From the NCBI GenBank assembly GCA_017452265.1, contig JAFTMS010000019.1, positions 151,844 through 215,843 on the forward strand: a stretch of 64,000 bases of DNA, read 5' to 3'. The position numbers were made by a program, and so were the translations under genes. Positions 3,795 through 58,935 of the stretch are shown here, one piece after another. How positions within the stretch are numbered: position 1 is the stretch's first letter; each line of letters begins with the position of its first letter. The notes beneath the pieces were generated by a model, which made no database searches, was not told the DNA's origin, and saw only the letters and a program-made list of their open reading frames with translations. The stretch is from Bacteroidales bacterium. Its GTDB lineage: Bacteria > Bacteroidota > Bacteroidia > Bacteroidales > UBA932.

Positions 3795-5414
3795 ATGAAA
3801 ACGTTTAAATACATCATACCGGCCGCACTTCTTGCCGCTGCCTGCACTTCCATCGACGAGCTTGACCCTCAAGGCGGCATCATACTCGCCACACAGGTTC
3901 AGGAGACCAACGCCCTCGTGCCTTCACGTACAAATGCCACATTCAACGGCATGTTCACAAAGTTAGGCTCACCGGGAAGCGTATTCGGAGGCACACGTCC
4001 GGACGACTGGGGCTTCCTCATGATGTGCCTTTCGAACGATCTGGAGGCTGCGGACGTCGTCTTCCCATACAGCGGATACAACTGGTTTTCTGCCTGCGGA
4101 CTTCTCACATCGCGCAATGCAGACTATGCGAACCCTTACGTCCGATATGCCGCTCCGTACAACGAAATCGCAATCGCAAATGAAATCATAAGCTCATATC
4201 CGGCTGATACTCAAGATACAGAATCTCTTTACAAGATTGCTCAGGCCCGCGCGATGCGTGCTTTTGCATATCTGAATCTCGCACCGTATTTCCAGTTCGG
4301 TCATGCTGCCGGAGGGGCCGACAAACCGTGTGTTCCGATTGTCACCGAAGCCACGACCGACTTCACGGACAATCCGCGTGCTTCTGTAAGCGAGGTGTAT
4401 GCCCTCATAATCGACGACCTCACATATGCAATCGACAAGCTGGAAGGATATGTCCGCACAGACAAGTCGCGTATCGACAGACAGGTTGCATACGGTCTTA
4501 GAGCCAGAGCCTACCTGAACATGCAGGAATGGGCTCTCGCCGCTTCCGATGCCGCCGCAGCAGCCTCAGGATACGCTCCGGCATCCATTCAGGAAGTCTC
4601 CGCGCCTTCATTCTACAGCATCAGCGAGCACAACTGGATCTGGGGATACGACATGACGACAGACGTCGCCCTGAAGAATCCTTATGCAACATCGAGTTCG
4701 TGGATACGTTCTTTCTCGGCAGACGGATACGCAGCGGCCTGCCAGGTGTACGCCTGCTGCAACAATCTGCTCTATGAAAAGATTCCGCAGACCGACGTGC
4801 GAAAAGGATGGTGGGTGGATTCTTCGCTGTACTCCCCTCTTCTGGATGCGGTCAGCTGGGACGGCGTTTCCGGACAGGAGCTTGCAAAGCTTGAAATCGA
4901 GAATGTAAAGATGGCCTTTCTGCCGTATACGAACGTGAAGTTCGGCATGTACACCATCGGAGGGACAAGCAACGATGAGGACTGGCCTTTCATGCGCGTC
5001 GAGGAAATGATACTGATTCAGGCCGAGGGGCTGCTCAAGAGCGGGTCGGCCGGCCAGGCGAAGGCGCTGCTTGAAGATTTCGTGAAGACATATCGCGATC
5101 CGGCATATTCGGCAGACGCTTCCGGGCGCACCCTTGAAGACGAAATCTGGTTTCAGCGCCGCGTAGAGCTCTGGGGAGAAGGCTTCTCGAACGCAGACAC
5201 ACGCCGCCTAAACAAGCCTTTGGTGCGTTTCCATGATTCTTCAAGCAACTTCCCCGAAGCGTTCCGCTTCAATATGGCCGCCGATGACGGATGGTGGCTG
5301 ATGCGATTCACATCCGGCGAGAAGAACACGAATCTTGCGATCGTGGACAATACAGGAGGCTCACTGCCGGTTCAGGATCAGAATCCGGGCCTGCGTGACG
5401 GAGTGACAGACTGA
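3795..5414 (+). CDS. SusD/RagB-like outer-membrane lipoprotein
   Basis: Surface nutrient-binding lid partner of the upstream SusC-like channel. The 539-residue product has a lipoprotein signal with a lipobox ending in Cys (LLAAAC at about residues 12-17) and SusD-type tetratricopeptide helices (RAMRAFAYLNLA around residue 155, RARAYLNMQEW around residue 237). The C-terminus has the typical E-I-W-F-Q-R-R-V-E-L-W-GEGF segment that in SusD proteins precedes an arginine-rich loop. It follows SusC by 25 bases and ends 110 bases before a palindromic terminator, so the two genes form a two-gene operon. Confidence 0.92.
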   Translation: MKTFKYIIPAALLAAACTSIDELDPQGGIILATQVQETNALVPSRTNATFNGMFTKLGSPGSVFGGTRPDDWGFLMMCLSNDLEAADVVFPYSGYNWFSACGLLTSRNADYANPYVRYAAPYNEIAIANEIISSYPADTQDTESLYKIAQARAMRAFAYLNLAPYFQFGHAAGGADKPCVPIVTEATTDFTDNPRASVSEVYALIIDDLTYAIDKLEGYVRTDKSRIDRQVAYGLRARAYLNMQEWALAASDAAAAASGYAPASIQEVSAPSFYSISEHNWIWGYDMTTDVALKNPYATSSSWIRSFSADGYAAACQVYACCNNLLYEKIPQTDVRKGWWVDSSLYSPLLDAVSWDGVSGQELAKLEIENVKMAFLPYTNVKFGMYTIGGTSNDEDWPFMRVEEMILIQAEGLLKSGSAGQAKALLEDFVKTYRDPAYSADASGRTLEDEIWFQRRVELWGEGFSNADTRRLNKPLVRFHDSSSNFPEAFRFNMAADDGWWLMRFTSGEKNTNLAIVDNTGGSLPVQDQNPGLRDGVTD

Positions 5415-48199: not shown

Positions 48200-48273
48200 G
48201 GCGGGATAGCTCAGCTGGTTAGAGCGCATGATTCATAATCATGAGGTCCGCAGTTCAATCCTGCGTCCCGCTA
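48200..48273 (+). tRNA. tRNA-Met (CAT), integration target of the island
   Basis: Acceptor GGCGGGA pairs with TCCCGCT (with one G-U pair). The D-arm is GCTCAGCTGGTTAGAGC, the anticodon arm is CATGA-TTCATAA-TCATG with anticodon CAT, and the T-arm is CGCAGTTCAATCCTGCG. A CAT anticodon could also belong to tRNA-Ile2 with lysidine; elongator Met is the simpler reading. From the anticodon loop to beyond its 3' end this gene is repeated at 58894-58957, which marks it as the attachment site of the island. Confidence 0.92.
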
Positions 48274-48295
48274 CTTGAAAATCAAGCACTTACGA
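48232..48295 (+). repeat. attL: left 64-bp direct repeat
   Basis: Runs from the anticodon loop of tRNA-Met through its T-arm and into the first arm of the terminator. It is identical base for base to 58894-58957 (offset 10662). After a 4-base difference the similarity continues through the terminator to about 48331. Confidence 0.95.
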
Positions 48296-48316
48296 AAGTT
48301 TCGTGAGTGCTTTTTT
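48285..48316 (+). terminator. Terminator after tRNA-Met
   Basis: AGCACTTACGAAA pairs with TTTCGTGAGTGCT (one mismatch), followed by TTTTTT. A copy lies at the island's other end (58947-58978). Confidence 0.85.
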
Positions 48317-48396
48317 CTTTGTGGGGAACACATTTTTGCCCCATTTCGGACAGGTTTCACATGGATTATGTTAGCAGATATGTTAGCAAAATTATC

Positions 48397-49629
48397 ATGT
48401 TAACTACCTCAGTAGAAGCCATTTGCTTCAATTATCGTCCGAAAAAGGACAACACTTATCCTATTATGCTCCGTTTAACCAAGTCCGGAAAGCGGAAATA
48501 TGTCTCTCTCGGAGTGTCTGTAAAGGAAGAACATTGGGATTTCAAGAAGAACACGCCTAAGCGGAACTGCCCCGATAGGGATTTCATTCTAGCTATCATT
48601 GACAAGCGCATCGCGGAATACAGGGCGCGGATAAATGAGTACAGGCTGGAGAACAAGGACTACACTTTGGAAACTCTTGTACAGCGAACCGAAAACCCTG
48701 TGAGAAGCATGAGCGTTGGCAGTTATCTTGACCTGTTCATTTCACAGTTAAAAGATGAAAACAGGCTCGGATATGCAGAAAGTTTCAAGGGTCTCAAATC
48801 ATCCTTACTTCTGTACTGCAAATCCCTTGACATCAAATTTTCCGCAATAGATAATCAATGGTTAAAGGGATATGAAATACACCTCAAAAAAGGAGGAAAA
48901 GGGAACAACACGATAGGCATCCGCTTCCGTTCCCTGCGTGCCCTCTACAACAAAGCCATTGCGGATGAAGTGGTCAAGAGGGATTACTATCCATTTGAGA
49001 CTTTCAAGATCAGTAAGTTCCGTGAACAGACAAGGAAAAGAGCAATCAAGAGAGAGGACATCAAGAGAATCATAGACCTTGATGTGCGGACAATAACCAA
49101 TTATCGAAGTCCATATCTTGAACTTGGCAGAGACCTGTTCATTTTCAGTTACCTCACATGTGGAATAAACCTCGCAGACATGGCTAGGATAAGATATTCT
49201 GATATTTATGATGGCAGATTGGAATATCACAGAAAAAAGACAAACAAACTGATCGCCTGTAAACTGCAAGAACCAGCATTAAAGATTATTGAGAAGTACC
49301 GCAAGCAGAACGCTGTCCCCGAAGATTACATCTTCCCTATCCTTGACAGGAAAGTTCACAAGACAGAAACACAGATAAGGGACAAGGTACGTAAGGCTAA
49401 CAAGGCGACCAACAAAGCCCTGCACAAGATCGAGAACAAACTCGGACTTCCGATAAGCTTGACCACCTATGTAGCCCGCCACTCATTTGCCACAGTCCTG
49501 AAACGGTCTGGAGTAAGTACCTCTATAATCTCTGAAAGTCTCGGACACAGTTCTGAAAAGGTAACGCAGATTTACCTTGACAGCTTTGAGAATGAGCAGA
49601 TAGATAATGCAATGCAGAATCTGCTGTAA
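48397..49629 (+). CDS. Tyrosine-recombinase integrase of the island
   Basis: Catalyses site-specific integration and excision at tRNA-Met. The 410-residue product has an Arm-type N-terminal domain (VEAICFNYRPKKDNTYPI), a SAM-like core-binding domain (residues about 105-205) and a catalytic domain with the Lys in RKKTNK, Arg-His in VARHSFATVLK, His in SLGHSSEK and the Tyr nucleophile in QIYLDSF. At the first catalytic Arg position the sequence is CGINLADM, where Asn replaces Arg. The ATG at 48397 lies just after TGTTAGCA repeats that may be integrase-binding sites; ATGs at 48361 and 48307 are in frame. Confidence 0.93.
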   Translation: MLTTSVEAICFNYRPKKDNTYPIMLRLTKSGKRKYVSLGVSVKEEHWDFKKNTPKRNCPDRDFILAIIDKRIAEYRARINEYRLENKDYTLETLVQRTENPVRSMSVGSYLDLFISQLKDENRLGYAESFKGLKSSLLLYCKSLDIKFSAIDNQWLKGYEIHLKKGGKGNNTIGIRFRSLRALYNKAIADEVVKRDYYPFETFKISKFREQTRKRAIKREDIKRIIDLDVRTITNYRSPYLELGRDLFIFSYLTCGINLADMARIRYSDIYDGRLEYHRKKTNKLIACKLQEPALKIIEKYRKQNAVPEDYIFPILDRKVHKTETQIRDKVRKANKATNKALHKIENKLGLPISLTTYVARHSFATVLKRSGVSTSIISESLGHSSEKVTQIYLDSFENEQIDNAMQNLL

Positions 49630-49705
49630 GCAAATATCCACTCCACTTGTTCCCCACAGGTGGAGTTTTTTGTACCTTTGCTACAAACCAAGCAATAGGT
49701 AAAGA

Positions 49706-50626
49706 ATGAAAAGCAAACTTGTAATGTGGGATGATCTGCTACTGTTAGATTACATTGGCGATATCGAGGACAGATACATTCCTGAATATGATTGTTTTGG
49801 ATACAGCGATAGCGTCAGCATAGAGATATGTGAAGTAAATGATGAAGATTTTTCGGAAGAAGAATTAGAAATGCTGGATTCAATGCCTGTAGGGGCTTCT
49901 ATGTGCAAGAGCATCTTCACAAAACGATATAATGACGATCTTGTAAGGCAGAAGAATATCTATAGCACATACAAGAAAGAATTGTCGCCACTTGTTGAAA
50001 AGCTCGAACTTGATATAGATAAGTTCTGGTACTTGTCACTGTTCATTTTGGACTATTGCGAAAGCATCTTCTATTCAGGAGAATCATTCAAGGCTACAGC
50101 ATTGGAACAGCTTTTCAAATTATCCAACACTATTGAACAATGCCAAGGCGAACCTATGACACTCCTTTTCAAGAGTGGAAAGAAGAAAGTTGAGCTTGAT
50201 TCCCCAAAGGCGATTTCGGTTATTGCATCGCTAATAAATGAGCTAACCGAACAACTTGATCAAGAATATCTAAATGATGATCAAGAGGGAAAGATGAGCC
50301 GCAAGTTAAGAACCTTGCTGAATCAGAGGGAGAGGAAAGAGGAAGCGGATATGATCTCTGATTCCCCTATCATTGCATACTTCGCCAATATGTTCCTGCG
50401 TTTCTTCGATACACAGAGCAAGATATGCGACCAAAGGAAAAAGGGTGTCAAGCATACCAAAACAGAAATGGAGTTGGTAAGTAGGTTAATCTACCTGACA
50501 GGACTTTCCACAAACGAGAATTGGAATGATATAGAATTTGAATATCTAAAGGCATTCCTGAAACAGTACAAGGACTACCGCTATCCGAACAATTCCAGTA
50601 GCGTTTATCCGGAGTTTTCTATCTAA
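49706..50626 (+). CDS. Protein of unknown function (306 aa)
   Basis: I do not recognise a family. The product is soluble, with no signal peptide or membrane segment, acidic at the N-terminus (several runs of Glu and Asp over residues 20-60) and helix-rich. A charged stretch MSRKLRTLLNQRERKEEAD lies around residue 200. It starts 76 bases after the integrase stop in the same direction and is followed by a strong terminator, so it belongs to the integrase end of the island. A role in excision control is possible but has no sequence support. Confidence 0.75.
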   Translation: MKSKLVMWDDLLLLDYIGDIEDRYIPEYDCFGYSDSVSIEICEVNDEDFSEEELEMLDSMPVGASMCKSIFTKRYNDDLVRQKNIYSTYKKELSPLVEKLELDIDKFWYLSLFILDYCESIFYSGESFKATALEQLFKLSNTIEQCQGEPMTLLFKSGKKKVELDSPKAISVIASLINELTEQLDQEYLNDDQEGKMSRKLRTLLNQRERKEEADMISDSPIIAYFANMFLRFFDTQSKICDQRKKGVKHTKTEMELVSRLIYLTGLSTNENWNDIEFEYLKAFLKQYKDYRYPNNSSSVYPEFSI

Positions 50627-50647
50627 GAATAGAACGATTTTTTACAG

Positions 50648-50696
50648 ATCCGTTATTCATTTTTCCGCAAGGGGAATAGAATAGCGGATTTTTTTA
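50648..50696 (+). terminator. Terminator after the 306-aa gene
   Basis: ATCCGTTATTC pairs with GAATAGCGGAT (one G-U/mismatch), extended by an inner TTTTCC/GGGGAA pairing, and is followed by a T-run. Confidence 0.8.
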
Positions 50697-50978
50697 TTCC
50701 CGAGAGACAGGCGAAAAGCGACATATATTTGCATCGTCAAACGGTAAGAGTTCTATGAAAGACTGACAGGAAAACGGATCGCTTCCGCTACTATGAAGCT
50801 CCCTCCGAAGCACAGTAAGGGGGAATAAAAATCCGCAAAAATTCATTCCTGACAGAACGGTCAAAACTGACTTACCTTTGCATCGTCAATCAGAAACAAG
50901 GGCGCCCGTTGAAGATTGAAACAGAGCAATTATTTAACCTTTAAAACCTAATGCTGTACAGGTTAAGCGTAGAAGAAA
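50697..50978 (+). promoter_or_regulatory. Gene-free stretch with two promoter boxes sharing an initiation sequence
   Basis: TATATTTG at 50724-50731 and TACCTTTG at 50873-50880 both match the -7 consensus, and both run into the same 13 bases, TTTGCATCGTCAA (50728-50740 and 50878-50890). The second is about 100 bases before the next gene. The first would start a transcript across about 150 bases without an ORF but with a GCTTC/GAAGC hairpin (about 50785-50805), perhaps a small RNA or an alternative leader. Confidence 0.55.
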
Positions 50979-51944
50979 ATGAATACTAATTCTAACAATA
51001 GAGTAGCTAATGCAGTTGTAGTTAATAACATTAACAACGATCTTATGGTAAATAACAATTCAGTGGGGGCGACCCCAAACACGGATGGAGCGCAGTTCAG
51101 GACAGTTAAGGCTCGAATCAATGGCGAGGTGCAGGATATTATACTTGCACGCCACAAATACAGCATGGAGGGGCTTAAGGCTTCCCAGCAGAAGCAGTTG
51201 GAACTTATAGATAAGTCAAAGATGCTTGACGTGATCTTCCACCTCGCAAAAGCAGAGGTGTTCTATGAAGCAGGGATTGAGCTTCGTGATCTTGACAACA
51301 ACGAGATTCCAACTGGTACACAGAATGTGTTTGTACCTGTTGAAACAGCTGATACATTCTATCGTTTTACAATTGATGATGTTTTGGAGAATGTTGAAGT
51401 ACATACTTTTGCTAATGTGCAGGAGTTTGCAGAGGTAACAGGTACGACAACCCTGTTCAGTAGAGGACTGACATCGAAAGAAAAAATAGGTGTAGCGGCT
51501 CTTGCTACAAACGATGAAGTTTGTAAGGCTACTTTTGACCTCGCTCTTGAAGGCAATATGCCTGCGAGCACAGCCCAGCTGTACCTTGACGTTCAGGTGA
51601 AGGGTGTGACAACATCTATGATGACAACTGGCTACAAGCCAAAGGATCTTACAGGTCTTGGAAGAACTTATGAGGAGGCAAAGGAGTTGTTTGAGAGGGT
51701 AAGCACTGTGTTTGGCGTGAATGAAGCAAAGAAGCGTTACACTATCCGCGCAATCAATTATATGGTAAAGGCAGAAGGCATTAGCCTTGAGCAAATCCAT
51801 AACGCGCTGGAGACAATCCCAGCAAATGATGTAGCAAAAGCCAAGTTAATGAAATGTGGCGAGAAAGAAACTTGCATTGTCACAACACTCATTCTCTGGA
51901 TCAGAGGTCAGGAGAGCAAGAGAATGTTCGTGCCAGCTGCCTAA
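50979..51944 (+). CDS. Protein of unknown function (321 aa)
   Basis: I do not recognise a family. The first 40 residues are Asn- and Val-rich and look disordered; the remainder is a mixed helical/strand soluble protein with a Lys/Arg-rich stretch LARHKYSMEGLKASQQKQ. It has no signal peptide, transmembrane segment or catalytic motif that I can name. It has its own promoter region and a terminator-like hairpin, so it is a single-gene unit. Its strong promoter suggests appreciable expression of an island function such as DNA binding or regulation; this is inference. Confidence 0.75.
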   Translation: MNTNSNNRVANAVVVNNINNDLMVNNNSVGATPNTDGAQFRTVKARINGEVQDIILARHKYSMEGLKASQQKQLELIDKSKMLDVIFHLAKAEVFYEAGIELRDLDNNEIPTGTQNVFVPVETADTFYRFTIDDVLENVEVHTFANVQEFAEVTGTTTLFSRGLTSKEKIGVAALATNDEVCKATFDLALEGNMPASTAQLYLDVQVKGVTTSMMTTGYKPKDLTGLGRTYEEAKELFERVSTVFGVNEAKKRYTIRAINYMVKAEGISLEQIHNALETIPANDVAKAKLMKCGEKETCIVTTLILWIRGQESKRMFVPAA

Positions 51945-51952
51945 TTCAGGAC

Positions 51953-51985
51953 AATGGAAGCCCATCAAAAGGGTGGGCTTCCATT
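51953..51985 (+). terminator. Hairpin after the 321-aa gene
   Basis: AATGGAAGCCCA pairs perfectly with TGGGCTTCCATT around 9 bases, 9 bases past the stop. The T-tract is short. Confidence 0.7.
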
Positions 51986-52131
51986 ACCCCTAAAAATCCG
52001 CAAAATCAATCTCTAATGTTCGTAAAAGCGGTGTTCATATTAGGGGGTGCAGGGTGTTCAATTTAGTTGGGCTACATACTAACAACTAATATACTAATAC
52101 CTATTGTTTATATATCTTGGGAAAGAGGTCT

Positions 52132-52731
52132 ATGATTCAGTACAGAAAAATAACTGAACTTATAGCTGGTAGGTTGAAGCCTAAAGAAGCATACCTGTTC
52201 TATTGTCTGGCTCTGAAGTCTGATTTTATAACTAATGAATCATATATTACGCAGGACAGTTTAGCTAAGTTCTATGGGATCAAAGATGTTGACCAAATCA
52301 GCAAATGGCTATATGAGTTCCAATCAAAAGGTCTGCTGACTGTTGTAAAGTACAAAGTCAAGGGGAAGTACGGAACATTCAGTAAATGCAAGTACATATT
52401 AAACGCAGAACATTACAATCTGATTTCTGACCTCTTGAAAGATGAACCAATCAGCAGGCAGTTGAAAGGATTTTTGATATTGCTGAAATGCAAATGTCTG
52501 AATGGCACGAATACTACAAAATTCAGTCAGAACCAATTAGCTAATGAATTGGGAATATCCACAGGGGCTATATCTCAATATATGAAAGATGCGATAGATA
52601 ATGCTTATGTAAGTAAGGATGAGAACGGAATCCACTTGTTAAGAGAGGATATTTTTCTAAAGGCTAAGGCGGAATTTCGTAAAGTCAAATCTGCGAAGCC
52701 TAAAGAAAAATTAGTTATCCTTATGGACTAA
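52132..52731 (+). CDS. Winged-helix DNA-binding protein
   Basis: The 199-residue product has an N-terminal winged-helix-like region (TQDSLAKFYGIKDVDQISKW, then a wing with KVKGKYGTF). A second helix-turn-helix lies at residues about 140-165 (QLANELGISTGAISQYMKDA). Paired winged helices of this sort occur in replication initiators and plasmid or island regulators, so a Rep-like or regulatory role is possible. I chose the ATG at 52132 because AGAGG lies 5 bases upstream; a TTG 15 bases earlier is in frame. It is followed by a long gene-free region. Confidence 0.75.
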   Translation: MIQYRKITELIAGRLKPKEAYLFYCLALKSDFITNESYITQDSLAKFYGIKDVDQISKWLYEFQSKGLLTVVKYKVKGKYGTFSKCKYILNAEHYNLISDLLKDEPISRQLKGFLILLKCKCLNGTNTTKFSQNQLANELGISTGAISQYMKDAIDNAYVSKDENGIHLLREDIFLKAKAEFRKVKSAKPKEKLVILMD

Positions 52732-53254
52732 TCAGGGACAAACTGTGATTTTTTTGTCTCTACTATACCAAGAACAGAAATGATCAGAAATGTCCCTGTG
52801 CATATAGATAATTGACAAAATCACTTCATTACATACATAGTTAATGGTTACAGAGCCGTAGGTAAGCAATTACTTATGGCTCTTATTTTTAATGGGTGCA
52901 GGAGCATATTGCCGAAAAATCCGCGAATCCGAATATGTGCTGAATCTGTCTGAATTTCAGGATATATAGTCCATACTGAAATTTTCACTCCATTAGCTAA
53001 TATGATATAGAATGACAGATTAGCTGTAAAATCCCCTCCTCCTGTTCTGCAAAAAAATCCCCCTACTGAAATTATATGAGACTCCTGAGGATGGGCAGAC
53101 ATCTCATTTTCCCGCCCCTCGAAAACTTATAGAAAAGCATTCTTTCAGAAAGTAGCGAGCTATATTCATAAAAGGTACTTGAGTAAATATAAACTAGTAA
53201 TCCTATAAGGGACAAATGTTTACAGGAGAATTAACCATTTAATCATCTACCATT
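52732..53254. other. Long gene-free region in the island
   Basis: No convincing coding frame was found over 520 bases. It holds a hairpin (AGAGCC at 52852-52857 with GGCTCT at 52878-52883, plus an inner GTAA/TTAC pair) followed by TATTTTT, which looks like a terminator. C-rich tracts occur near 53030-53060. Position between a Rep-like gene and DUF3871 would also suit an origin, but no iterons or AT-rich unwinding array are evident. Confidence 0.4.
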
Positions 53255-54193
53255 ATGAACGACATTATTTTAGATTCACCAAGCGTGAACTTCCTTGAAG
53301 CGAACACTAACGCTATCACTATGGAGGAACTTACCGAACAGTGCGTTGTGCCTACATGGGCTAATCAGGAGCTGACTATCTCACATCAGGACTTCATCCA
53401 GACTGTGCATGATGCAGCGTGCAACATCTTCGCAGGAGAGACCGTGAACACTCCTGAGATTCGTGTCTCTCACATTGTGCGTGGTCGCATACCATCAGCA
53501 CTTGGCAAGCGTTCAAGTGAACTTCTTGAATCCGAGAAAACACAGTTCTTTCAGCGGCTGGCTTTCGCATTCACTATCCCAAGTCTGCATGAGTGCATAG
53601 CAGGTCAGCGTCTTGAACTCTGCATTGGAGGTGTCCGCAACTATTCGGATTTGAACCTCTATCGTGCCAATCGTGGAATGGAGAAATTCACAATCTTCAT
53701 CGGATGGCGTGTGAATGTCTGCTCTAATCAGGTTCTCACAGGAGAGGGTGTCAGTCTGTCACTTGAAGTGATGTCTATCCATGACCTTTATAAAGGTGTT
53801 CTGGAACTGTTCAACAGTTTCAATATGGATAGGGACATACAACTGTTGCAGACCCTTACACAGACAAGGCTCACAGAATCGCAGTTCGCACAGATTGTGG
53901 GCAGGATGAGACTATATCAGGCATTACCTAGCTACTTGCAGCGTAAAGTGCCAAAGCTTCTCATCACAGACAGTCAGATTAACAATGTGTGCCGTGACTA
54001 CTACAACAATCCGAACTTCGGAGCAAAGGACAGCACGATATCCATGTTCGATTTCCACAATCTGCTCACAGAAGCCAACAAGAGCAGTTACATAGACAGC
54101 TATGTACAGCGTGGCATCAATGCTACAGAAGTGACCGTAGGAATCTGCAAGGCTCTACAGGGAGATTCTGAATACTCTTGGTTCTTGGGATAG
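53255..54193 (+). CDS. DUF3871-family protein
   Basis: The 312-residue product matches my recollection of the DUF3871 family, found on Bacteroidota mobile elements: the VSHIVRGRIPSAL segment, LELCIGGVRNYSDLNLY, KFTIFIGWRVNVCSNQ and a C-terminal NVCRDYYNNPNFG. Its biochemical role is unknown. It is soluble with no signal peptide. It precedes the RadC-like gene by 67 bases, with a terminator between. The association DUF3871, RadC-like, short recombinase is typical of this island type. Confidence 0.85.
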   Translation: MNDIILDSPSVNFLEANTNAITMEELTEQCVVPTWANQELTISHQDFIQTVHDAACNIFAGETVNTPEIRVSHIVRGRIPSALGKRSSELLESEKTQFFQRLAFAFTIPSLHECIAGQRLELCIGGVRNYSDLNLYRANRGMEKFTIFIGWRVNVCSNQVLTGEGVSLSLEVMSIHDLYKGVLELFNSFNMDRDIQLLQTLTQTRLTESQFAQIVGRMRLYQALPSYLQRKVPKLLITDSQINNVCRDYYNNPNFGAKDSTISMFDFHNLLTEANKSSYIDSYVQRGINATEVTVGICKALQGDSEYSWFLG

Positions 54194-54212
54194 GAGTACA
54201 TTTACCTGTCAG

Positions 54213-54244
54213 AGAGGGCATCCGCGTGGGTGTCCTCTTTTTTA
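54213..54244 (+). terminator. Terminator after the DUF3871 gene
   Basis: AGAGGGCATCC and GGGTGTCCTCT form an imperfect stem around GCG(T), followed by TTTTTT. Confidence 0.75.
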
Positions 54245-54260
54245 TTGACCTATTAACTAA

Positions 54261-54719
54261 ATGACAATGAACACAGATTTTAAGGTGGCAGAAGTCAGTC
54301 TGTCTTACAGAAATACTGTTCCATACGATAAGCGGATAAAGGTGAGGGATGCAAAGGACGCGTACAAGGTGATGCTGAAAATGCACGATGATGATACGCT
54401 TGACTATACAGAGACTTTCAGAGTCCTATATCTGAATCAGAACAATCAGGTTCTTGGTTGCAGAATAATATCTGAGGGAGGTCTCGCTAGTACCTGTTGC
54501 GATGTCCGTACAATCCTGCAAGGTGCATTACTTACAAACGCTGTGGCTATGATTCTCGCACATAATCACCCAAGCGGAAATGTCACGCCAAGCCTGTCAG
54601 ACATAAAGATGACAACGCAAATCAGCAAAGCCGCTAAACTGCTGGATATTTCCCTCCTTGACCATATCATCTACACAAGGGAGAATTGCTACAGTTTCGC
54701 TGATGATGGGCAAATCTAA
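54261..54719 (+). CDS. RadC-like JAB-domain protein
   Basis: JAMM/MPN+ metalloprotein related to the C-terminal domain of RadC. The 152-residue product carries the zinc motif AHNHPSGNVTPSLSD (His-x-His-Pro, then Ser and Asp) at about residues 98-112, with an upstream Glu in the RIISEGG stretch. It lacks the N-terminal helix-hairpin-helix region of chromosomal RadC. Such short versions are common on integrated elements and their substrate is unknown. Confidence 0.92.
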   Translation: MTMNTDFKVAEVSLSYRNTVPYDKRIKVRDAKDAYKVMLKMHDDDTLDYTETFRVLYLNQNNQVLGCRIISEGGLASTCCDVRTILQGALLTNAVAMILAHNHPSGNVTPSLSDIKMTTQISKAAKLLDISLLDHIIYTRENCYSFADDGQI

Positions 54720-54736
54720 AATAATCACTAATGGTG

Positions 54737-54800
54737 AAAGTGAATGTTTCTCTGATTATCAATAAGTTACAATGAAGATGATTTTAGGAACATTCACTTT
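54737..54800 (+). terminator. Long-loop hairpin before the short recombinase gene
   Basis: AAAGTGAATGTT (54737-54748) and AACATTCACTTT (54789-54800) are perfect complements with a 40-base loop. It could end the RadC-like transcript, or be an operator or recombination site given the recombinase gene that starts 30 bases later. Confidence 0.5.
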
Positions 54801-54829
54801 TGCTTGTTTAACCACAAAAACGAATATTT

Positions 54830-55417
54830 ATGAGCTTGAAATACTCAACCACAACCGCAGACTATCTTGTGTGGTCTGACGCAATGAACCTTATCCGCAA
54901 ATTGGCGAAAGACAAGAATTATAAAATGTCTCTCCTTATTGCACTCGGCTGTTTCACAGGATTACGAATCTCTGACATCCTAGCTCTGACATGGGAGCAG
55001 ATTCTCAATACAGAGGAATTTACTGTAACGGAGAAAAAGACAGGAAAGCGAAGGACACTCCGCTTGAATCCTCAACTACAGAAGCATATACAGGAGTGCT
55101 ATAATCACATACAACCTCTGAAAGTCCAATCCTACATATTGGTCAGTCAGAAAGGCACAGTCTTCACGATCCAGCGAATCAACGTAATCCTGAAAGAGGT
55201 AAAGAAGAAGTACCGCTTGAAAGTGAAGAACTTCAGCTGTCACTCACTCCGCAAGACCTTTGGCAGACAGGTTTACAATATGAACAGTGAAAACTCCGAG
55301 CTTGCCCTTGTCAAGCTTATGGAACTGTTCAACCATAGCTCTGTAGCCATTACCAAGCGTTACCTTGGTTTGAGACAGGAGGAGATTTTGGAGACTTATG
55401 ACTGTCTGACGTTCTGA
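54830..55417 (+). CDS. Short tyrosine recombinase (catalytic domain only)
   Basis: The 195-residue product is essentially a stand-alone catalytic domain. The complete set is visible: Arg in FTGLRISDIL, Lys in TEKKTGKRR, His-Ser-Leu-Arg in SCHSLRKTFG, His in LFNHSSVA and Tyr in KRYLGLRQ. The usual N-terminal SAM-like domain is missing and there is no sign that it was cut off, as the gene has its own start. It may act as a directionality partner, a DNA inversion enzyme, or a resolvase for the island. Unlike the main integrase it keeps the first catalytic Arg. Confidence 0.9.
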   Translation: MSLKYSTTTADYLVWSDAMNLIRKLAKDKNYKMSLLIALGCFTGLRISDILALTWEQILNTEEFTVTEKKTGKRRTLRLNPQLQKHIQECYNHIQPLKVQSYILVSQKGTVFTIQRINVILKEVKKKYRLKVKNFSCHSLRKTFGRQVYNMNSENSELALVKLMELFNHSSVAITKRYLGLRQEEILETYDCLTF

Positions 55418-55548
55418 ATTTAGGCACGGTAGATTTTTAGGAAATTTTTCTCTTATACAGGGAGACCTTGAAAATCTACCTGCCTTTTCAGAAAATTAGA
55501 ATTGAGAATCTATACAATATCACATCTTTTTGTTAAATTTGTCGCAAT
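55418..55548 (+). promoter_or_regulatory. Promoter region of the structured RNA
   Basis: TAAATTTG at 55534-55541 is a perfect TAnnTTTG -7 box, without a clear -33 element. Further down, TTTTG at 55577-55581 and TATCTTC at 55603-55609, 21 bases apart, form a second candidate promoter that would start inside the first stem of the RNA. No coding frame is seen in this stretch. Confidence 0.5.
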
Positions 55549-55800
55549 TCCGAGCTAGCAATGGTAAGGAAGGACATTTTGACAAAAAGGTGTTATTGAA
55601 ATTATCTTCTTAGATTAAACTTCGCAACTTTAATTTTTAGCATGAAGATAATAGGCAATGGCACCACATCAATGGTTTGTACAGCCCTTAGTGGGTTTAT
55701 ACATATCCTTTGGTGTGGGCTGTTGCTTTATCCATGCTAAAGGTAATGCGAAGACCTAATCTAAGGATAAAGCAATAAGTTCCCACACCTTCTTTTTTAT
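55549..55800 (+). ncRNA. Structured RNA with competing long stems upstream of zinc-ribbon/HEPN genes
   Basis: Stem set A: CTTAGATTA (55609) with TAATCTAAG (55757), TTCGCA (55621) with TGCGAA (55747), and TTAGCATG (55637) with CATGCTAA (55733), all nested. An apical pair ACAGCCC (55681) with GGGCTGT (55717) lies inside. Stem set B: GGTGTGGG (55712) with CCCACACC (55782), and TTGCTTTATCC (55723) with GGATAAAGCAA (55765), followed by TTCTTTTTT. Sets A and B overlap or cross, giving either alternative folds or a pseudoknot. B alone looks like an intrinsic terminator 50 bases before the zinc-ribbon start codon. Readings: an attenuating leader or riboswitch-like element, a free-standing small RNA, or a 6S-like RNA. 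I cannot assign it to a known family. Confidence 0.65.
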
Positions 55801-55839
55801 CCGCTATCTCTGGGAATTGGTTAGCACAAACAGATAAAT

Positions 55840-56025
55840 ATGCCTATTCAATTTGATAAAGCAAATAGAATCGAGGATAATACAGAAAGCACAGACTGTC
55901 CTCATTCTGATATTGTAAAGGAGTACTATCTCAGTTCTCAAACAGGAGATTATAGATGCAGACAATGCGGTGCGACATTAACTGAGCAGGAGGTCAGGAT
56001 AATCAAATTGAACAAGAAATCCTAA
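55840..56025 (+). CDS. Small zinc-ribbon protein
   Basis: The 61-residue product has a CPHS pair at residues about 20-22 and a CRQCG knuckle at about residues 40-44, separated by a strand-like stretch, consistent with a single Cys/His zinc ribbon. It ends 12 bases before the HEPN gene and follows the structured RNA by about 40 bases, so RNA, zinc ribbon and HEPN gene may form one unit. No catalytic residues are visible; a nucleic-acid-binding or adaptor role is plausible. Confidence 0.7.
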   Translation: MPIQFDKANRIEDNTESTDCPHSDIVKEYYLSSQTGDYRCRQCGATLTEQEVRIIKLNKKS

Positions 56026-56037
56026 ACGACGTAGCTC

Positions 56038-56493
56038 ATGGCTGAATTCAACATAAATAAATTATCCGAAAAGGATATAATAAATGCATATCGCTTCATT
56101 TATATTTTTGAGAATGAGGTTTATGCAAACTACGGAACATTTGATTTTAACTGTCCCGAAATCAACAATTTCTGCCAAGAACATAGAATCAAGAAAAAGG
56201 ATAAAAGAAACTCAAAACCAAGCGATAATTACTTTTGGTTTGATTCAATAAAAATACAAGGTGCATTGAACAATGACTATGCTCATAATTTTCTCAGACA
56301 TGTCAGAAATGCCATTGCTCATGGTAATTTCAAGAAAGTCAGAGGTAAGAAGCCATGCTATATAATTGAAGATTATAACAAGAACAATGTTAAAACGATG
56401 TTTGGCAAAATTCACGCTGACTTATTTTGGAAATACCTAAGCATCGTGCTACATACTTCCAAGGCGATTAACAAGAATATAACTTTCAAATAA
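56038..56493 (+). CDS. HEPN-family protein, putative RNase
   Basis: The 151-residue product is helical and contains HVRNAIAHGNF with Arg90 and His95, the R-x4-H signature of HEPN ribonucleases; RNAIAHG also fits the RNxxxHG pattern of DUF4209-like and pEK499_p136-like HEPN proteins. HEPN proteins serve as toxins or abortive-infection effectors, or as RNA-processing enzymes. A preceding zinc-ribbon gene and a structured RNA recall RNA-associated HEPN systems, but no antitoxin (MNT or other) is evident. It is 8 bases ahead of the lipoprotein gene. Confidence 0.8.
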   Translation: MAEFNINKLSEKDIINAYRFIYIFENEVYANYGTFDFNCPEINNFCQEHRIKKKDKRNSKPSDNYFWFDSIKIQGALNNDYAHNFLRHVRNAIAHGNFKKVRGKKPCYIIEDYNKNNVKTMFGKIHADLFWKYLSIVLHTSKAINKNITFK

Positions 56494-56501
56494 AATACAT
56501 T

Positions 56502-58142
56502 ATGAAAATATCTAAATTATTCGGATCGGCATTATTCGCGATCTCATTGTGCGTCTCTGCATGTGATGAAATCGGAACCCAAGCAGTGCTAAACACTGAG
56601 CCTTCTATAAGACCTCAGAAGATAGATATGACTGGGGTTCAAGGTTTTGCTATAGTGGAGAACACCTCTAATGCTCCACGCACAAAGGCAGACATAAATG
56701 GTGATGGAGTAGATGATGATATGCCTAATGGTAATGGAGGTGAGGCAGTGACCACCTCTCCATATGCCCTATATACTATTGATGAAAACGGAGAACTTCA
56801 TGCCTCAATATTCTATTTTGAGGTAGTGCCATCTGAAGATGGTAGTACAGACGTTTCCAACACCGAAGTGTTGAAAGAAATTTCCAACGCTCTTCAGATC
56901 GTGCCATCCCTTGTGACTGACTTAGGTAAATATATTCTCTTTTCAGGATGTGAATACCATATTGTGGATACAGAGATTTCAGATGAAGCAAGAGCTATCT
57001 GTGAATCATTCATCCAAAATAACATGTGGGGGCATAGGGTCTATATGATAAGAAAGTCTGATGGTGCTTTGTTTGATCTTTCTAATCAGTCAATATTTAC
57101 ATATTCATATATGGAACCTATTGACGAATTTATGGGCATTTACAACCACTGGTTTAGTCCTCAATATGTCAACTATAATGCTTTGAATCAGTACATACCG
57201 ACTTATAGGTACATGATTTCACCTAAAGGAAACCTATTTGCTCAATCATGTTGCGATGATCATATTTCTCAAATTGTTGATAACGGTGATGCTATAGATT
57301 TAAAGCAACTGTCCCAAGATTATGATATAAATTCCTTACCTCGTTTTATAGTTGATAAGAGTGAAAACATTTATTTATATTATGATTTAGGGATTTATAG
57401 GAACATTGATATTTATTTCTCTGATGGAGGATTTGACTCTATTGACATTACTTCTGATTGTCATATGTTTTTTGATATGAAAGTTGATAACAATGGTGGT
57501 GCATATATATTCTTTTTGGAAAATCATGATTCAGGCCCCTATATTAAAGCAGGAATATTATCGAATGGTAAGTACGTGGAGTCCAGTGGGATATCAATAC
57601 CAGGCTATACCCATACTCCGTACGCAACATATGGTGGTGATCCAGTAATTTATCCTCATTATATTGGTTTTTCAAATGGAGATTTTAAATGGTTTTTATC
57701 ACAGGAATTCTGGAGCGACTATTATAATAATGAGCCTACAAAAACTTTTAAAACAATTACATACAATAAGGATAGTGATGAATGGATACTAAAAGATTTG
57801 CCTAAAGAATTATATGACTTATTAACAAAAAGATATGATTCATTACTATGTGGAATAAAATCATATGGAGTTAACGTAAGCAGCAATCTTATTGAAGTAA
57901 GTGAGATAGATATAGAGAATGAAAGTTCTCGTCAATACACCTTCAATATAGATTTGTCTTTTATAAAATCACAACGTTATATAGCAACTACTTTAAATGG
58001 ATCGCCCTATCTTATCATTAACGGCAAAAATTCAGATAGTGGAGCTAATATTTCACTTAAGATAAACCTTACCAATGGTGAAAACAATTCTACATTTGCC
58101 CCAGATGGTAGAAATGTAGTTTCGTTCTATAGAATCAATTAG
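56502..58142 (+). CDS. Large surface lipoprotein of unknown function
   Basis: The 546-residue product has a lipoprotein signal (MKISKLFGSALFAISLCVSAC, split before the Cys) and a low-complexity Asp/Gly/Asn stretch after it (ADINGDGVDDDMPNGNGGE). A strand-rich, aromatic-rich body follows in which short segments of the type NIYLYYDLGIYRN and GGAYIFFLENHDSG recur, suggestive of a beta-propeller or repeat fold. The gene is strongly AT-rich compared with the chromosomal genes. Function is unknown; a surface receptor or exclusion factor carried as island cargo is speculation. Confidence 0.75.
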   Translation: MKISKLFGSALFAISLCVSACDEIGTQAVLNTEPSIRPQKIDMTGVQGFAIVENTSNAPRTKADINGDGVDDDMPNGNGGEAVTTSPYALYTIDENGELHASIFYFEVVPSEDGSTDVSNTEVLKEISNALQIVPSLVTDLGKYILFSGCEYHIVDTEISDEARAICESFIQNNMWGHRVYMIRKSDGALFDLSNQSIFTYSYMEPIDEFMGIYNHWFSPQYVNYNALNQYIPTYRYMISPKGNLFAQSCCDDHISQIVDNGDAIDLKQLSQDYDINSLPRFIVDKSENIYLYYDLGIYRNIDIYFSDGGFDSIDITSDCHMFFDMKVDNNGGAYIFFLENHDSGPYIKAGILSNGKYVESSGISIPGYTHTPYATYGGDPVIYPHYIGFSNGDFKWFLSQEFWSDYYNNEPTKTFKTITYNKDSDEWILKDLPKELYDLLTKRYDSLLCGIKSYGVNVSSNLIEVSEIDIENESSRQYTFNIDLSFIKSQRYIATTLNGSPYLIINGKNSDSGANISLKINLTNGENNSTFAPDGRNVVSFYRIN

Positions 58143-58161
58143 AGAATCTTTCTAAATTTGA

Positions 58162-58195
58162 AAAGCCAACCTACCTTTTGCGGTAAGTTGGCTTT
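58162..58195. terminator. Terminator after the lipoprotein gene
   Basis: AAAGCCAACCTACC and GGTAAGTTGGCTTT pair at most positions (G-U and A-U included) around a short loop, with A-rich and T-rich flanks, between convergent genes. Confidence 0.8.
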
Positions 58196-58200
58196 CAGTT

Positions 58201-58389
58201 TTAGAACATTCTCTTTGGTAGAAAATAGGTTTTCAGGACTTTATAAGGAATCGCTTTGTAGGTGTTTTCAGTGATCACAGTTTCCTTAACATCATCGAGA
58301 ATGTAGGTTACAGGTCTGTTCAGTTCCTCGAAAATCCTCTTTGGCTTGTCTGCCTGCCTCTTTCTTTTCTTTAATTTCTTGCTATCCAT
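58201..58389 (-). CDS. Small basic protein of unknown function
   Basis: The 62-residue product is highly basic at the N-terminus (SKKLKKRKRQADKPKR), followed by a strand-like segment PVTYILDDVKETVI. It has a good ATG, ends just inside the convergent terminator, and is the only minus-strand gene of the island. It may bind nucleic acid. It could instead be a chance ORF; size and composition alone do not settle it. Confidence 0.5.
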   Translation of the reverse strand: MDSKKLKKRKRQADKPKRIFEELNRPVTYILDDVKETVITENTYKAIPYKVLKTYFLPKRMF

Positions 58390-58830
58390 AATTCAAAAAT
58401 TTTTGAGTGAAACATAAATTCATATACTCAATTATATGAAGCATTACAGTTCTCTCAAAATAGGAGATACAGAATGTTGAATAGTGAGCAGAATGAGATC
58501 ATATTTGCCATTTTTCTGAGGACTGGAAGGCTACTCTAAATGGAAATACATAGCAAGTCAAATTGTAGAAACAAATGCTGTTGGTGCATGAAAATCACAT
58601 AGGATATAATTGGATAATAGCCACAAAACAGCTATCTTTGTGTTGGATATAGGAAAATATAACTGATTGAATATCAACCATATTATATTAAGTTTAACCC
58701 AATATCTACTGACATATACATGTTAGCAAACCTGTTAACATAAACGAGGAAGTCTTGATTTTCAACATTGATTATCGCAAGGGTGAGCAGAAAAACAACA
58801 CCCATAAACAATGAATAATCAATGAGTTAA
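58390..58830. other. Gene-free right end of the island
   Basis: No convincing coding frame was found. TGTTAGCA and TGTTAACA lie close together at about 58721-58742, resembling TGTTAGCA repeats beside the integrase start (48367-48400). They are candidate integrase arm sites. The rest is AT-rich with no clear structure. Confidence 0.45.
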
Positions 58831-58935
58831 GGGATAGCTCAGCTGGTAGTCTACAAATGCGCCAGCATTTGGAGACCGAAGAGAGCAGCGGGGTTCATAA
58901 TCATGAGGTCCGCAGTTCAATCCTGCGTCCCGCTA
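58831..58935 (+). pseudogene. tRNA-like mosaic at the right junction
   Basis: GGGATAGCTCAGCTGGT (58831-58847) matches bases 48203-48219 of tRNA-Met. A 46-base foreign insert follows, and then the tRNA resumes at the anticodon loop (58894) and runs to its 3' end at 58935. The insert carries a hairpin: GTCT-A-CAAATGC, loop GCCA, GCATTTG-G-AGAC. The 5' acceptor strand is incomplete, so a working tRNA is unlikely. Confidence 0.75.

Follow-up and report, generated by a model that had tools for sequence, protein, structure and literature searches.

We analysed a 64,000-nucleotide (nt) stretch of the Bacteroidales bacterium contig JAFTMS010000019.1 (hereafter the window, whose positions serve as coordinates throughout), in which a structured RNA element lies between a short tyrosine recombinase gene and three genes encoding a zinc-ribbon protein, a HEPN-like protein and a lipoprotein-like protein (Table 1). 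The zinc-ribbon gene at 55840-56025 and the HEPN gene at 56038-56493, with its R-x4-H motif, are where an initial annotation of this DNA had reported them. The gene for the lipoprotein-like protein, absent from that annotation, begins 8 bases past the HEPN stop codon and probably belongs to the same operon. The 246-nt segment at 55560-55805 folds with a minimum free energy of −87.6 kcal/mol, against a mean of −51.6 kcal/mol for shuffled sequences (z = −8.0; none of 200 shuffles equalled it). At gathering scores, Rfam matched nothing in the whole window but three tRNAs, and over the element itself, at E-values up to 10, it returned chance-level matches only (best E 0.39). By the annotation's own account, a match to a known, unrelated RNA family would have told against its reading; none matched over the element. 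Comparison with other genomes instead indicates that the element is one copy of a large multicopy family of leader RNAs found ahead of many unrelated genes.

BLAST recovered one copy at 83% on another contig of the window's own genome (C6), one at 80% in a second member of the genus, a relative at 69% in Phocaeicola massiliensis and two short matches. A covariance model built from six copies detected the family in 94 of the 393 genomes scanned from the order and in 52 of 206 genera, often several times per genome; because at most six candidates per genome were scored in this order-wide scan, its copy numbers are lower bounds. A pattern scan of named genomes, which required a CUUCGC core, yielded at least 116 loci. 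Among the matches listed, all came from Bacteroidia by record title, in taxa that include Phocaeicola, Bacteroides, Parabacteroides, Alistipes, Barnesiella, Muribaculaceae and Paludibacteraceae. A covariance model termed R1 matched 79 of the first 80 of these loci, and a model retrained on 48 copies (R2) matched the locus that R1 had missed (L149, cut at its end) as well as the other 36, matches that enter none of the counts given here. With R2 the family was found in 19 of 395 genomes of a phylum-wide sample, other orders and classes included, and in 13 of 37 genomes of the genus, the window's own among them; the latter carries six copies besides two reverse-strand shadows. Cultured carriers include Phocaeicola vulgatus ATCC 8482, Phocaeicola massiliensis DSM 17679, Phocaeicola coprocola DSM 17136 and Bacteroides clarus YIT 12056. 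A strict pattern had no match in the IMG/VR viral collection and none in phage records. No Rfam 15 family matched the core at the gathering cut-off, either in the window or in sets of 16, 18 and 20 loci, and 10 loci compared at E ≤ 1 likewise gave none.

We considered whether the models might be reporting any long palindrome, as the reverse strands of strong copies themselves score 26–38 bits; these shadows were dropped, 40 further copies were read, and the explanation was rejected. Our main sample drew on 44 of the 50 order-scan matches (the window duplicates L040, and five were reverse-strand shadows) and on 76 of the first 80 pattern-scan loci (three were cut at the stretch end, and two shadows were dropped). 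Removal of identical cores (L110, L156 and L103) reduced these 120 to 117 distinct copies, and 114 of these 117 were segmented, all but L050, L063 and L064. Of the 40 further copies, 24 came from the order (picked mostly for being short or low in score), 12 from other parts of the phylum, two from the window's own genome and two from genome G255.

In the consensus, a four-way junction interrupts a rod, and the two side hairpins of that junction (hp1 and hp2) kiss through about 7 base pairs (bp). Across 48 aligned copies, the rod and kissing pairs were formed in 88.9% of cells compared with 67.9% after shuffling, with a covariation score of 0.595 compared with 0.191. The covariation that the initial annotation had proposed to look for is thus present in the stems and speaks in favour of an RNA. 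The junction, taken as at least 5 bp in each of the helices P2 and P4 and at least 6 bp in the kiss, was found in 101 of the 114 segmented copies and in none of 1170 mononucleotide shuffles. It recurred in 36 of the 40 further copies, which add more variants of the kissing sequence, and in 0 of 1000 mononucleotide shuffles.

Within this architecture the sequences themselves are free to vary. The segmented copies hold 85 distinct P2 sequences and 92 distinct P4 sequences, while in the 48-copy alignment 97.6% of P2 cells, 94.2% of P4 cells and 99.4% of kissing cells are paired, and both partners vary at each P2, P4 and kissing pair. The kissing segment CUUCGCA occurs in 73 of the 114 copies and in 12 of the 41 that did not come from the pattern scan; among those 41 we also found UCUCGCA (in 9), UCGCCAA, CUUCGAC, CUUGGCG, UCUCGAC, UCUCUAC, UCCCCA, UCUGGUAA and others, each with a matching partner. 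By contrast with these variable parts, hp1 (AAA/UUU) and two GG/CC pairs of hp2 are nearly invariant in sequence across the 48 copies, and the fourth hp2 pair is U-A in 19, C-G in 14 and unpaired in 13. Diversifying selection on P2 and P4 was tried as an explanation and rejected, as their mismatch rate over 101 pairings of related copies (0.176 and 0.199) is not above that of the apical and upstream parts (0.213 and 0.228). The two arms do change about as fast as unpaired parts, yet they stay complementary, with few G-U intermediates.

The shape of this rod bears on a further proposal of the initial annotation, a 6S-like RNA, which would make the element a decoy for RNA polymerase. A long rod-shaped hairpin with a central interruption is indeed what the two would have in common, but the interruption here is a kissing four-way junction instead of an open bubble, the copies scanned have no Rfam match, and a single genome holds six of them. 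We regard a 6S-like role as very improbable.

The rod pairs strand 1 with strand 4 and strand 2 with strand 3. The same four strands can form two hairpins, 1:2 (hairpin C) and 3:4 (hairpin B), the second of which ends at the U-run; because they share bases, the two folds are mutually exclusive. Comparison of the copies shows both to be maintained at the level of sequence. Each pairing was better within than between copies in nearly all of the 114 (1:4 in 100, 2:3 in 112, 1:2 in 113 and 3:4 in 107), compared with 62 and 51 for the control pairings 1:3 and 2:4. On an alignment fitted to the rod, and with the kissing and side-hairpin pairs included, the alternative fold was formed in 83.7% of cells and scored 0.312, compared with 75.5% and 0.172 in shuffles. 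The two stem sets sharing bases in the initial annotation correspond to the rod and to the pairing of 55712-55732 with 55765-55789 ahead of the T-run at 55790-55798, and both were recovered at these positions. The annotation had reasoned that such an RNA must switch or form a pseudoknot, and pairings of both kinds are present.

Table 1. Features of the leader element and its surroundings (window coordinates unless a locus is named).
Feature	Positions	Strand	Remarks
Island, 10.7 kb	48240-58925	.	Likely; tRNA-Met 3' end (48240-48274) repeated at 58902-58925, at least 24 bases; integrase at 48307
Short tyrosine recombinase	54830-55417	+	Upstream of element
−7 promoter box TAAATTTG	55534-55541	+	TAnnTTTG, Bacteroidetes type; same box in 99/110 copies
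Strand 1 (GGUGU...AUUAUC)	55589-55606	+	Partner strand 4 (rod) or strand 2 (hairpin C)
P2, 5' side	55607-55613	+	Partner 55761-55767; sequence variable among copies, pairing kept
Side hairpin hp1 (xAAA..UUUx)	55614-55634	+	Loop 55620-55626 CUUCGCA kisses hp2
P4, 5' side	55637-55644	+	Partner 55733-55740
Strand 2	55645-55676	+	Partner strand 3 (rod) or strand 1 (hairpin C)
Strand 3	55712-55732	+	Partner strand 2 (rod) or strand 4 (hairpin B, terminator-like)
P4, 3' side	55733-55740	+	
Side hairpin hp2 (AGGY..RCCU)	55741-55757	+	Loop segment 55747-55753 UGCGAAG kisses hp1
P2, 3' side	55761-55767	+	Last three bases (55765-55767) reused by strand 4 in alternative fold
Strand 4	55765-55789	+	Partner strand 3 (hairpin B) or strand 1 (rod)
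U-run	55790-55798	+	Directly after hairpin B
3' hairpin	55803-55825	+	Loop GGGAAUU complementary to AGUUCCC just 5' of U-run; possible pseudoknot
Zinc-ribbon protein, 61 aa	55840-56025	+	First gene after leader; weak Pfam match, below cut-off
HEPN-like protein, 151 aa	56038-56493	+	R-x4-H = RNAIAH; PF18736 E 2.7e-4, below cut-off
Lipoprotein-like protein (N-terminus), 546 aa	56502-58142	+	No Pfam match
DUF805/DUF805b RNAs in tandem with element	L210:3180-3245 and 4144-4212; L214:3239-3274; L215:3257-3322		

Recurrent signals flank the element. In 99 of 110 copies a TAnnTTTG box stands about 82 nt upstream of P2, compared with 7.9% of mononucleotide shuffles, and 80 of 153 copies have ACAT[AT] a short way ahead of the core, compared with 12.6% in shuffles; a sigma-70 scan gave 4 sites compared with 1.6 in shuffles. 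In the window, the box would place the transcription start at about 55547-55550. Of the upstream promoter that the initial annotation had described, the −7 half is borne out by its recurrence; a −33 box matching the window's TAAATTTG was not found by eye. Downstream, 102 of 114 copies have T5 or T3NT3 after P2, at a median of 25 nt beyond it, as do 16.2% of shuffles (a looser test, passed by 112 of the 114, was also passed by 48% of shuffles, and the stricter one was used). By eye, many copies carry a 3' hairpin beyond the U-run, with a loop complementary to the segment that precedes the U-run; in 93 of 112 copies that segment pairs better with its own downstream stretch than with those of other copies. 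We also considered, and rejected, a leader peptide that would end at a conserved TTGA: by eye, a short open reading frame is present in the window, L002 and L007 but not, for example, in L044.

With genes called by script as the longest open reading frame rather than by a gene finder, the next gene shares the element's strand in 104 of 113 copies (binomial p 1e-21) and in 36 of 39 further ones; as a rule, the leader sits immediately ahead of an accessory gene's start codon. The same-strand gene starts 35–56 nt past the core in 40 of the 104, and in 8 of 36 in the second set. We scanned 78 of 82 downstream proteins with Pfam and PADLOC and 78 of 107 upstream proteins with Pfam. The first genes downstream encode BspA-type leucine-rich repeat proteins (9 of 78), TerB (5), DUF4595 (3), fimbrillin-like (2), FHA (2) and DUF2971 (2) proteins and one reverse transcriptase, and one downstream protein matches the AbiP2 model at 2e-181. 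By a home-made hydrophobicity rule, secreted or membrane proteins are enriched downstream (48 of 79 compared with 326 of 871). DUF805 and DUF805b RNAs are known from Bacteroidetes, and one or the other lies between the element and the start codon in 3 of 54 loci scanned. In one of these loci, L210, a second DUF805 RNA (4144-4212) precedes the next gene alone, without the element.

This breadth of cargo disagrees with what the initial annotation had put first, an RNA-controlled HEPN defence or toxin unit, which would here be a dedicated one akin to a type III toxin-antitoxin system. HEPN proteins with an R-x4-H motif are often RNases, and that activity, together with the adjacency of the two in the window, is what would recommend such a unit. 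The RNA, however, precedes many different genes and lacks the constant linkage to this one from which the annotation would have drawn support: we found the HEPN protein in 1 of 61 relatives, namely the window's own genome, and, across the order, in 2 of 386 genomes. The second of these order-wide matches is weak (34% over residues 80–147), and the 3.2-kb stretch around it holds no copy of the RNA. There are also no tandem repeats in 55400-56500, unlike in type III toxin-antitoxin RNAs. We find a dedicated RNA-HEPN unit scarcely credible.

The position of the copies also bears on whether they act on the genes behind them. Each copy could instead be a gene of its own for a trans-acting small RNA, terminated at the U-run, with the neighbouring gene incidental. 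Such a family would be expected to have its own promoter box and U-run and several copies per genome, as seen here, and could lie at some distance from the next gene: 22 of the 104 same-strand genes start more than 110 nt away, and in the complete genome of Phocaeicola vulgatus ATCC 8482 (copy at L162:3782-3993, minus strand; outside the 22 of 104) the next same-strand gene, whose product we read as a fimbrillin-like lipoprotein, is about 450 nt away. But incidental neighbours do not sit well with the finding that 104 of 113 and 36 of 39 copies are followed by a same-strand gene, with starts at 35–56 nt in 40 of 104, with copy-specific pairing that extends beyond the U-run, or with DUF805-type RNAs placed between the RNA and the gene in three loci. 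We consider a trans-acting role unlikely.

The window copy travels on what is likely an integrated island in tRNA-Met, reaching from the integrase to just past the cargo; the repeat of the tRNA-Met 3' end and the integrase agree with the mobile island of the initial annotation. Within the same genome, the contig C6 locus matches the window up to 55819 (83.5%) and again from 58198 (92.7% identity), and blastn aligns nothing across the cargo in between. The break comes 20 nt short of the start codon, and the two loci carry different cargo. In both loci a gene for a 62-aa basic protein (58201-58389 in the window, minus strand), convergent with the cargo, bounds the exchanged segment on its right. 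Matches between the window and other copies end at 55826 (L004), 55798 (L044 and L045) and 55829 (L100), and L051 and L073 match only up to the recombinase. We inspected 70 of 1038 copy-to-copy flank comparisons, and in most of the 70 similarity begins 6–121 bases upstream of the core and gives out somewhere from 10 bases short of the core end to 70 bases past it. Exceptions include L107/L122, alike to about +100; L002/L081/L143 and L084/L085, with long 3' flanks; and L004/L040, with a long 5' flank. L107 and L122 share the element, the start codon and the first downstream codons and then diverge, and the L107 frame stops early. Bacteroides sp. 51 has a pair of copies with 97.2% identity over 324 bases, yet the sequence behind them is different.

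Boundaries of this kind raise the possibility that the element acts as DNA, in the form of a palindromic site at which cargo is exchanged or recombined in the manner of integrons, perhaps by the adjoining short tyrosine recombinase, with the RNA structure as a by-product. The cargo swap between the two own-genome loci, the near-identical copies of Bacteroides sp. 51, a Phage_integrase gene as nearest upstream neighbour in 13 of 78 copies scanned, and the scarcity of G-U pairs in P2 and P4 would all fit such a site. However, homologous recombination between shared flanks would explain the swap equally well, and in 65 of the 78 copies scanned the closest gene upstream is not an integrase. The promoter box and U-run are strand-specific, the genes have a consistent polarity, and G-U pairs outnumber A-C mismatches in the helices formed by strands 1–4 (24:7 in P1, 111:47 in D, 67:26 in C and 84:27 in B), as expected for an RNA of this strand. 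Cassette arrays in which each cassette has its own site were not seen: 40 loci of 9–16 kb hold one same-strand copy each, and one 20.7-kb contig has two copies (L115 and L133) about 16 kb apart. We judge a DNA exchange site to be quite unlikely.

Mutually exclusive helices positioned 5' of a same-strand gene characterize attenuators and riboswitch-like leaders, and the family has both. We favour, with a probability of about 0.6, a portable 5' leader, made up of a promoter, a switching RNA of about 250 nt, a U-run and a 3' hairpin, that would attenuate transcription by exchanging folds. Hairpin 1:2 would form first during transcription. If the junction of P2, P4 and the hp1-hp2 kiss then zips up, strand 1 would capture strand 4, hairpin 3:4 would be blocked and the polymerase would read into the gene; if it does not, hairpin 3:4 and the U-run would end transcription. 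After read-through, the loop of the 3' hairpin could hold on to the 3' arm left open. A signal would presumably act on the kissing junction, with a small molecule, a protein or a change in transcription speed as candidates. In the window, the leader would control the zinc-ribbon/HEPN/lipoprotein operon of the tRNA-Met island.

Several observations weigh against this model of a fold-switching leader. Of the two folds, the rod has the greater stability in 113 of 113 copies, by a median of 11.4 kcal/mol, so that the terminator fold would need kinetic help. Hairpin 3:4 has a loop of about 32 nt, and a simple terminator scan, which allows loops of 3–8 nt only, found no terminator. The base of the rod likewise ends at the U-run, which leaves the direction of the switch unfixed. 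Several outer pairs are poorly kept: some of those of the rod (helices 8–10) form in only 39–62% of cells and the outer 1:2 pairs of the alternative fold in 38–52%, and across both folds several outer pairs form in only 38–69% (in the alternative fold, helices 1–3 and 11). The G-U excess is weak or absent in P2 (12:6), P4 (10:7) and hp2 (11:9), and the alignment used for covariation and G-U counts, having been fitted to the rod model, favours the rod and G-U pairs. The within- and between-copy duplex test carries no correction for relatedness. The constancy of hp1 and the kissing loop is inflated, since 73 of the 114 segmented copies come from the scan that required CUUCGC. As to position, the next gene is on the opposite strand in 9 of 113 copies, the starts at 35–56 nt are only a minority, and the starts more than 110 nt away count here as well. 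Lastly, the downstream genes are diverse and have no common function that would point to a ligand.

Among known systems, attenuators and orphan riboswitch candidates come closest: they too have four strands that pair as 1:2 and 3:4 or as 1:4 and 2:3, with a U-run ending 3:4, before a start codon. The ordinary attenuator that the initial annotation had named as a competing explanation is accordingly the nearest of its proposals, although neither the architecture nor the spread of the family is ordinary. Unlike these systems, the element has a kissing four-way junction, pairing that reaches past the U-run and a promoter box of its own, and it recurs as a unit before different genes with no shared pathway. 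In the lysine, purine and cobalamin riboswitch aptamers, kissing loops also stabilise a junction, and there the loops and cores are conserved in sequence; in the element, the kissing sequence changes with compensation. DUF805 and DUF805b RNAs (RF03081 and RF02914), classed as cis-regulatory in Rfam, would resemble the element in function class and lie directly 3' of it in three loci, but they are separate short motifs of 68 and 35 positions without a match to its core, and the window has none. FopS/GibS, according to PMC11697453, is a multicopy family of Bacteroides small RNAs with an intrinsic terminator; FopS is described there as a single-stranded 5' stretch, with a seed, followed by a terminator, and as being in Rfam, whereas the element is mostly paired, precedes genes and has no Rfam match. 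Fremin and Bhatt describe palindromic, often terminator-like candidates, with Bacteroidetes examples near varied genes, and the four palindromic examples named in the part of PMC8040213 that we compared measure 80–132 bp, against about 250 nt for the element. In the literature, as far as the portions available to us extend, we recognised no description of this RNA family; the 3161 candidates in the supplement of PMC8040213 lay outside the comparison and may list pieces of it. The family is apparently undescribed. Attenuating leaders as such are already known; what appears new is the architecture, the freedom of sequence and the placement before diverse, often island-borne genes.

A wider reading, which we put forward tentatively and think more probably wrong than right, is that of a phylum-wide, sequence-plastic riboregulator, in which one architecture with its promoter docks onto newly acquired genes and places them under one common signal. 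The junction would then be read by its geometry and not its sequence, leaving P2, P4 and the kissing loops free to drift. In this tentative scheme the cargo would comprise surface lipoproteins, BspA and TerB proteins and defence genes such as those for HEPN and the AbiP2-like reverse transcriptase. If it is true, many accessory and surface genes of gut Bacteroidota would be under one undiscovered RNA switch and one signal, which would explain how horizontally acquired cargo, here the zinc-ribbon/HEPN operon, comes under host-compatible control. More than 100 natural variants, a four-strand model and copies in cultured species offer a handle for its study.

Two further features of the window lie upstream of the leader. 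A RadC-like gene (54261-54719) stands directly upstream of the short recombinase gene, and relatives of it occur near the RNA in 6 of 44 clustered loci. Right after the recombinase gene, at 55429-55480, the sequence forms a hairpin (GGTAGATTTT..AAAATCTACC) that may be a terminator or a recombination site; at the equivalent place, the relative L004 carries a different, likewise self-complementary sequence (GGGCGACA..TGTCGCCC).

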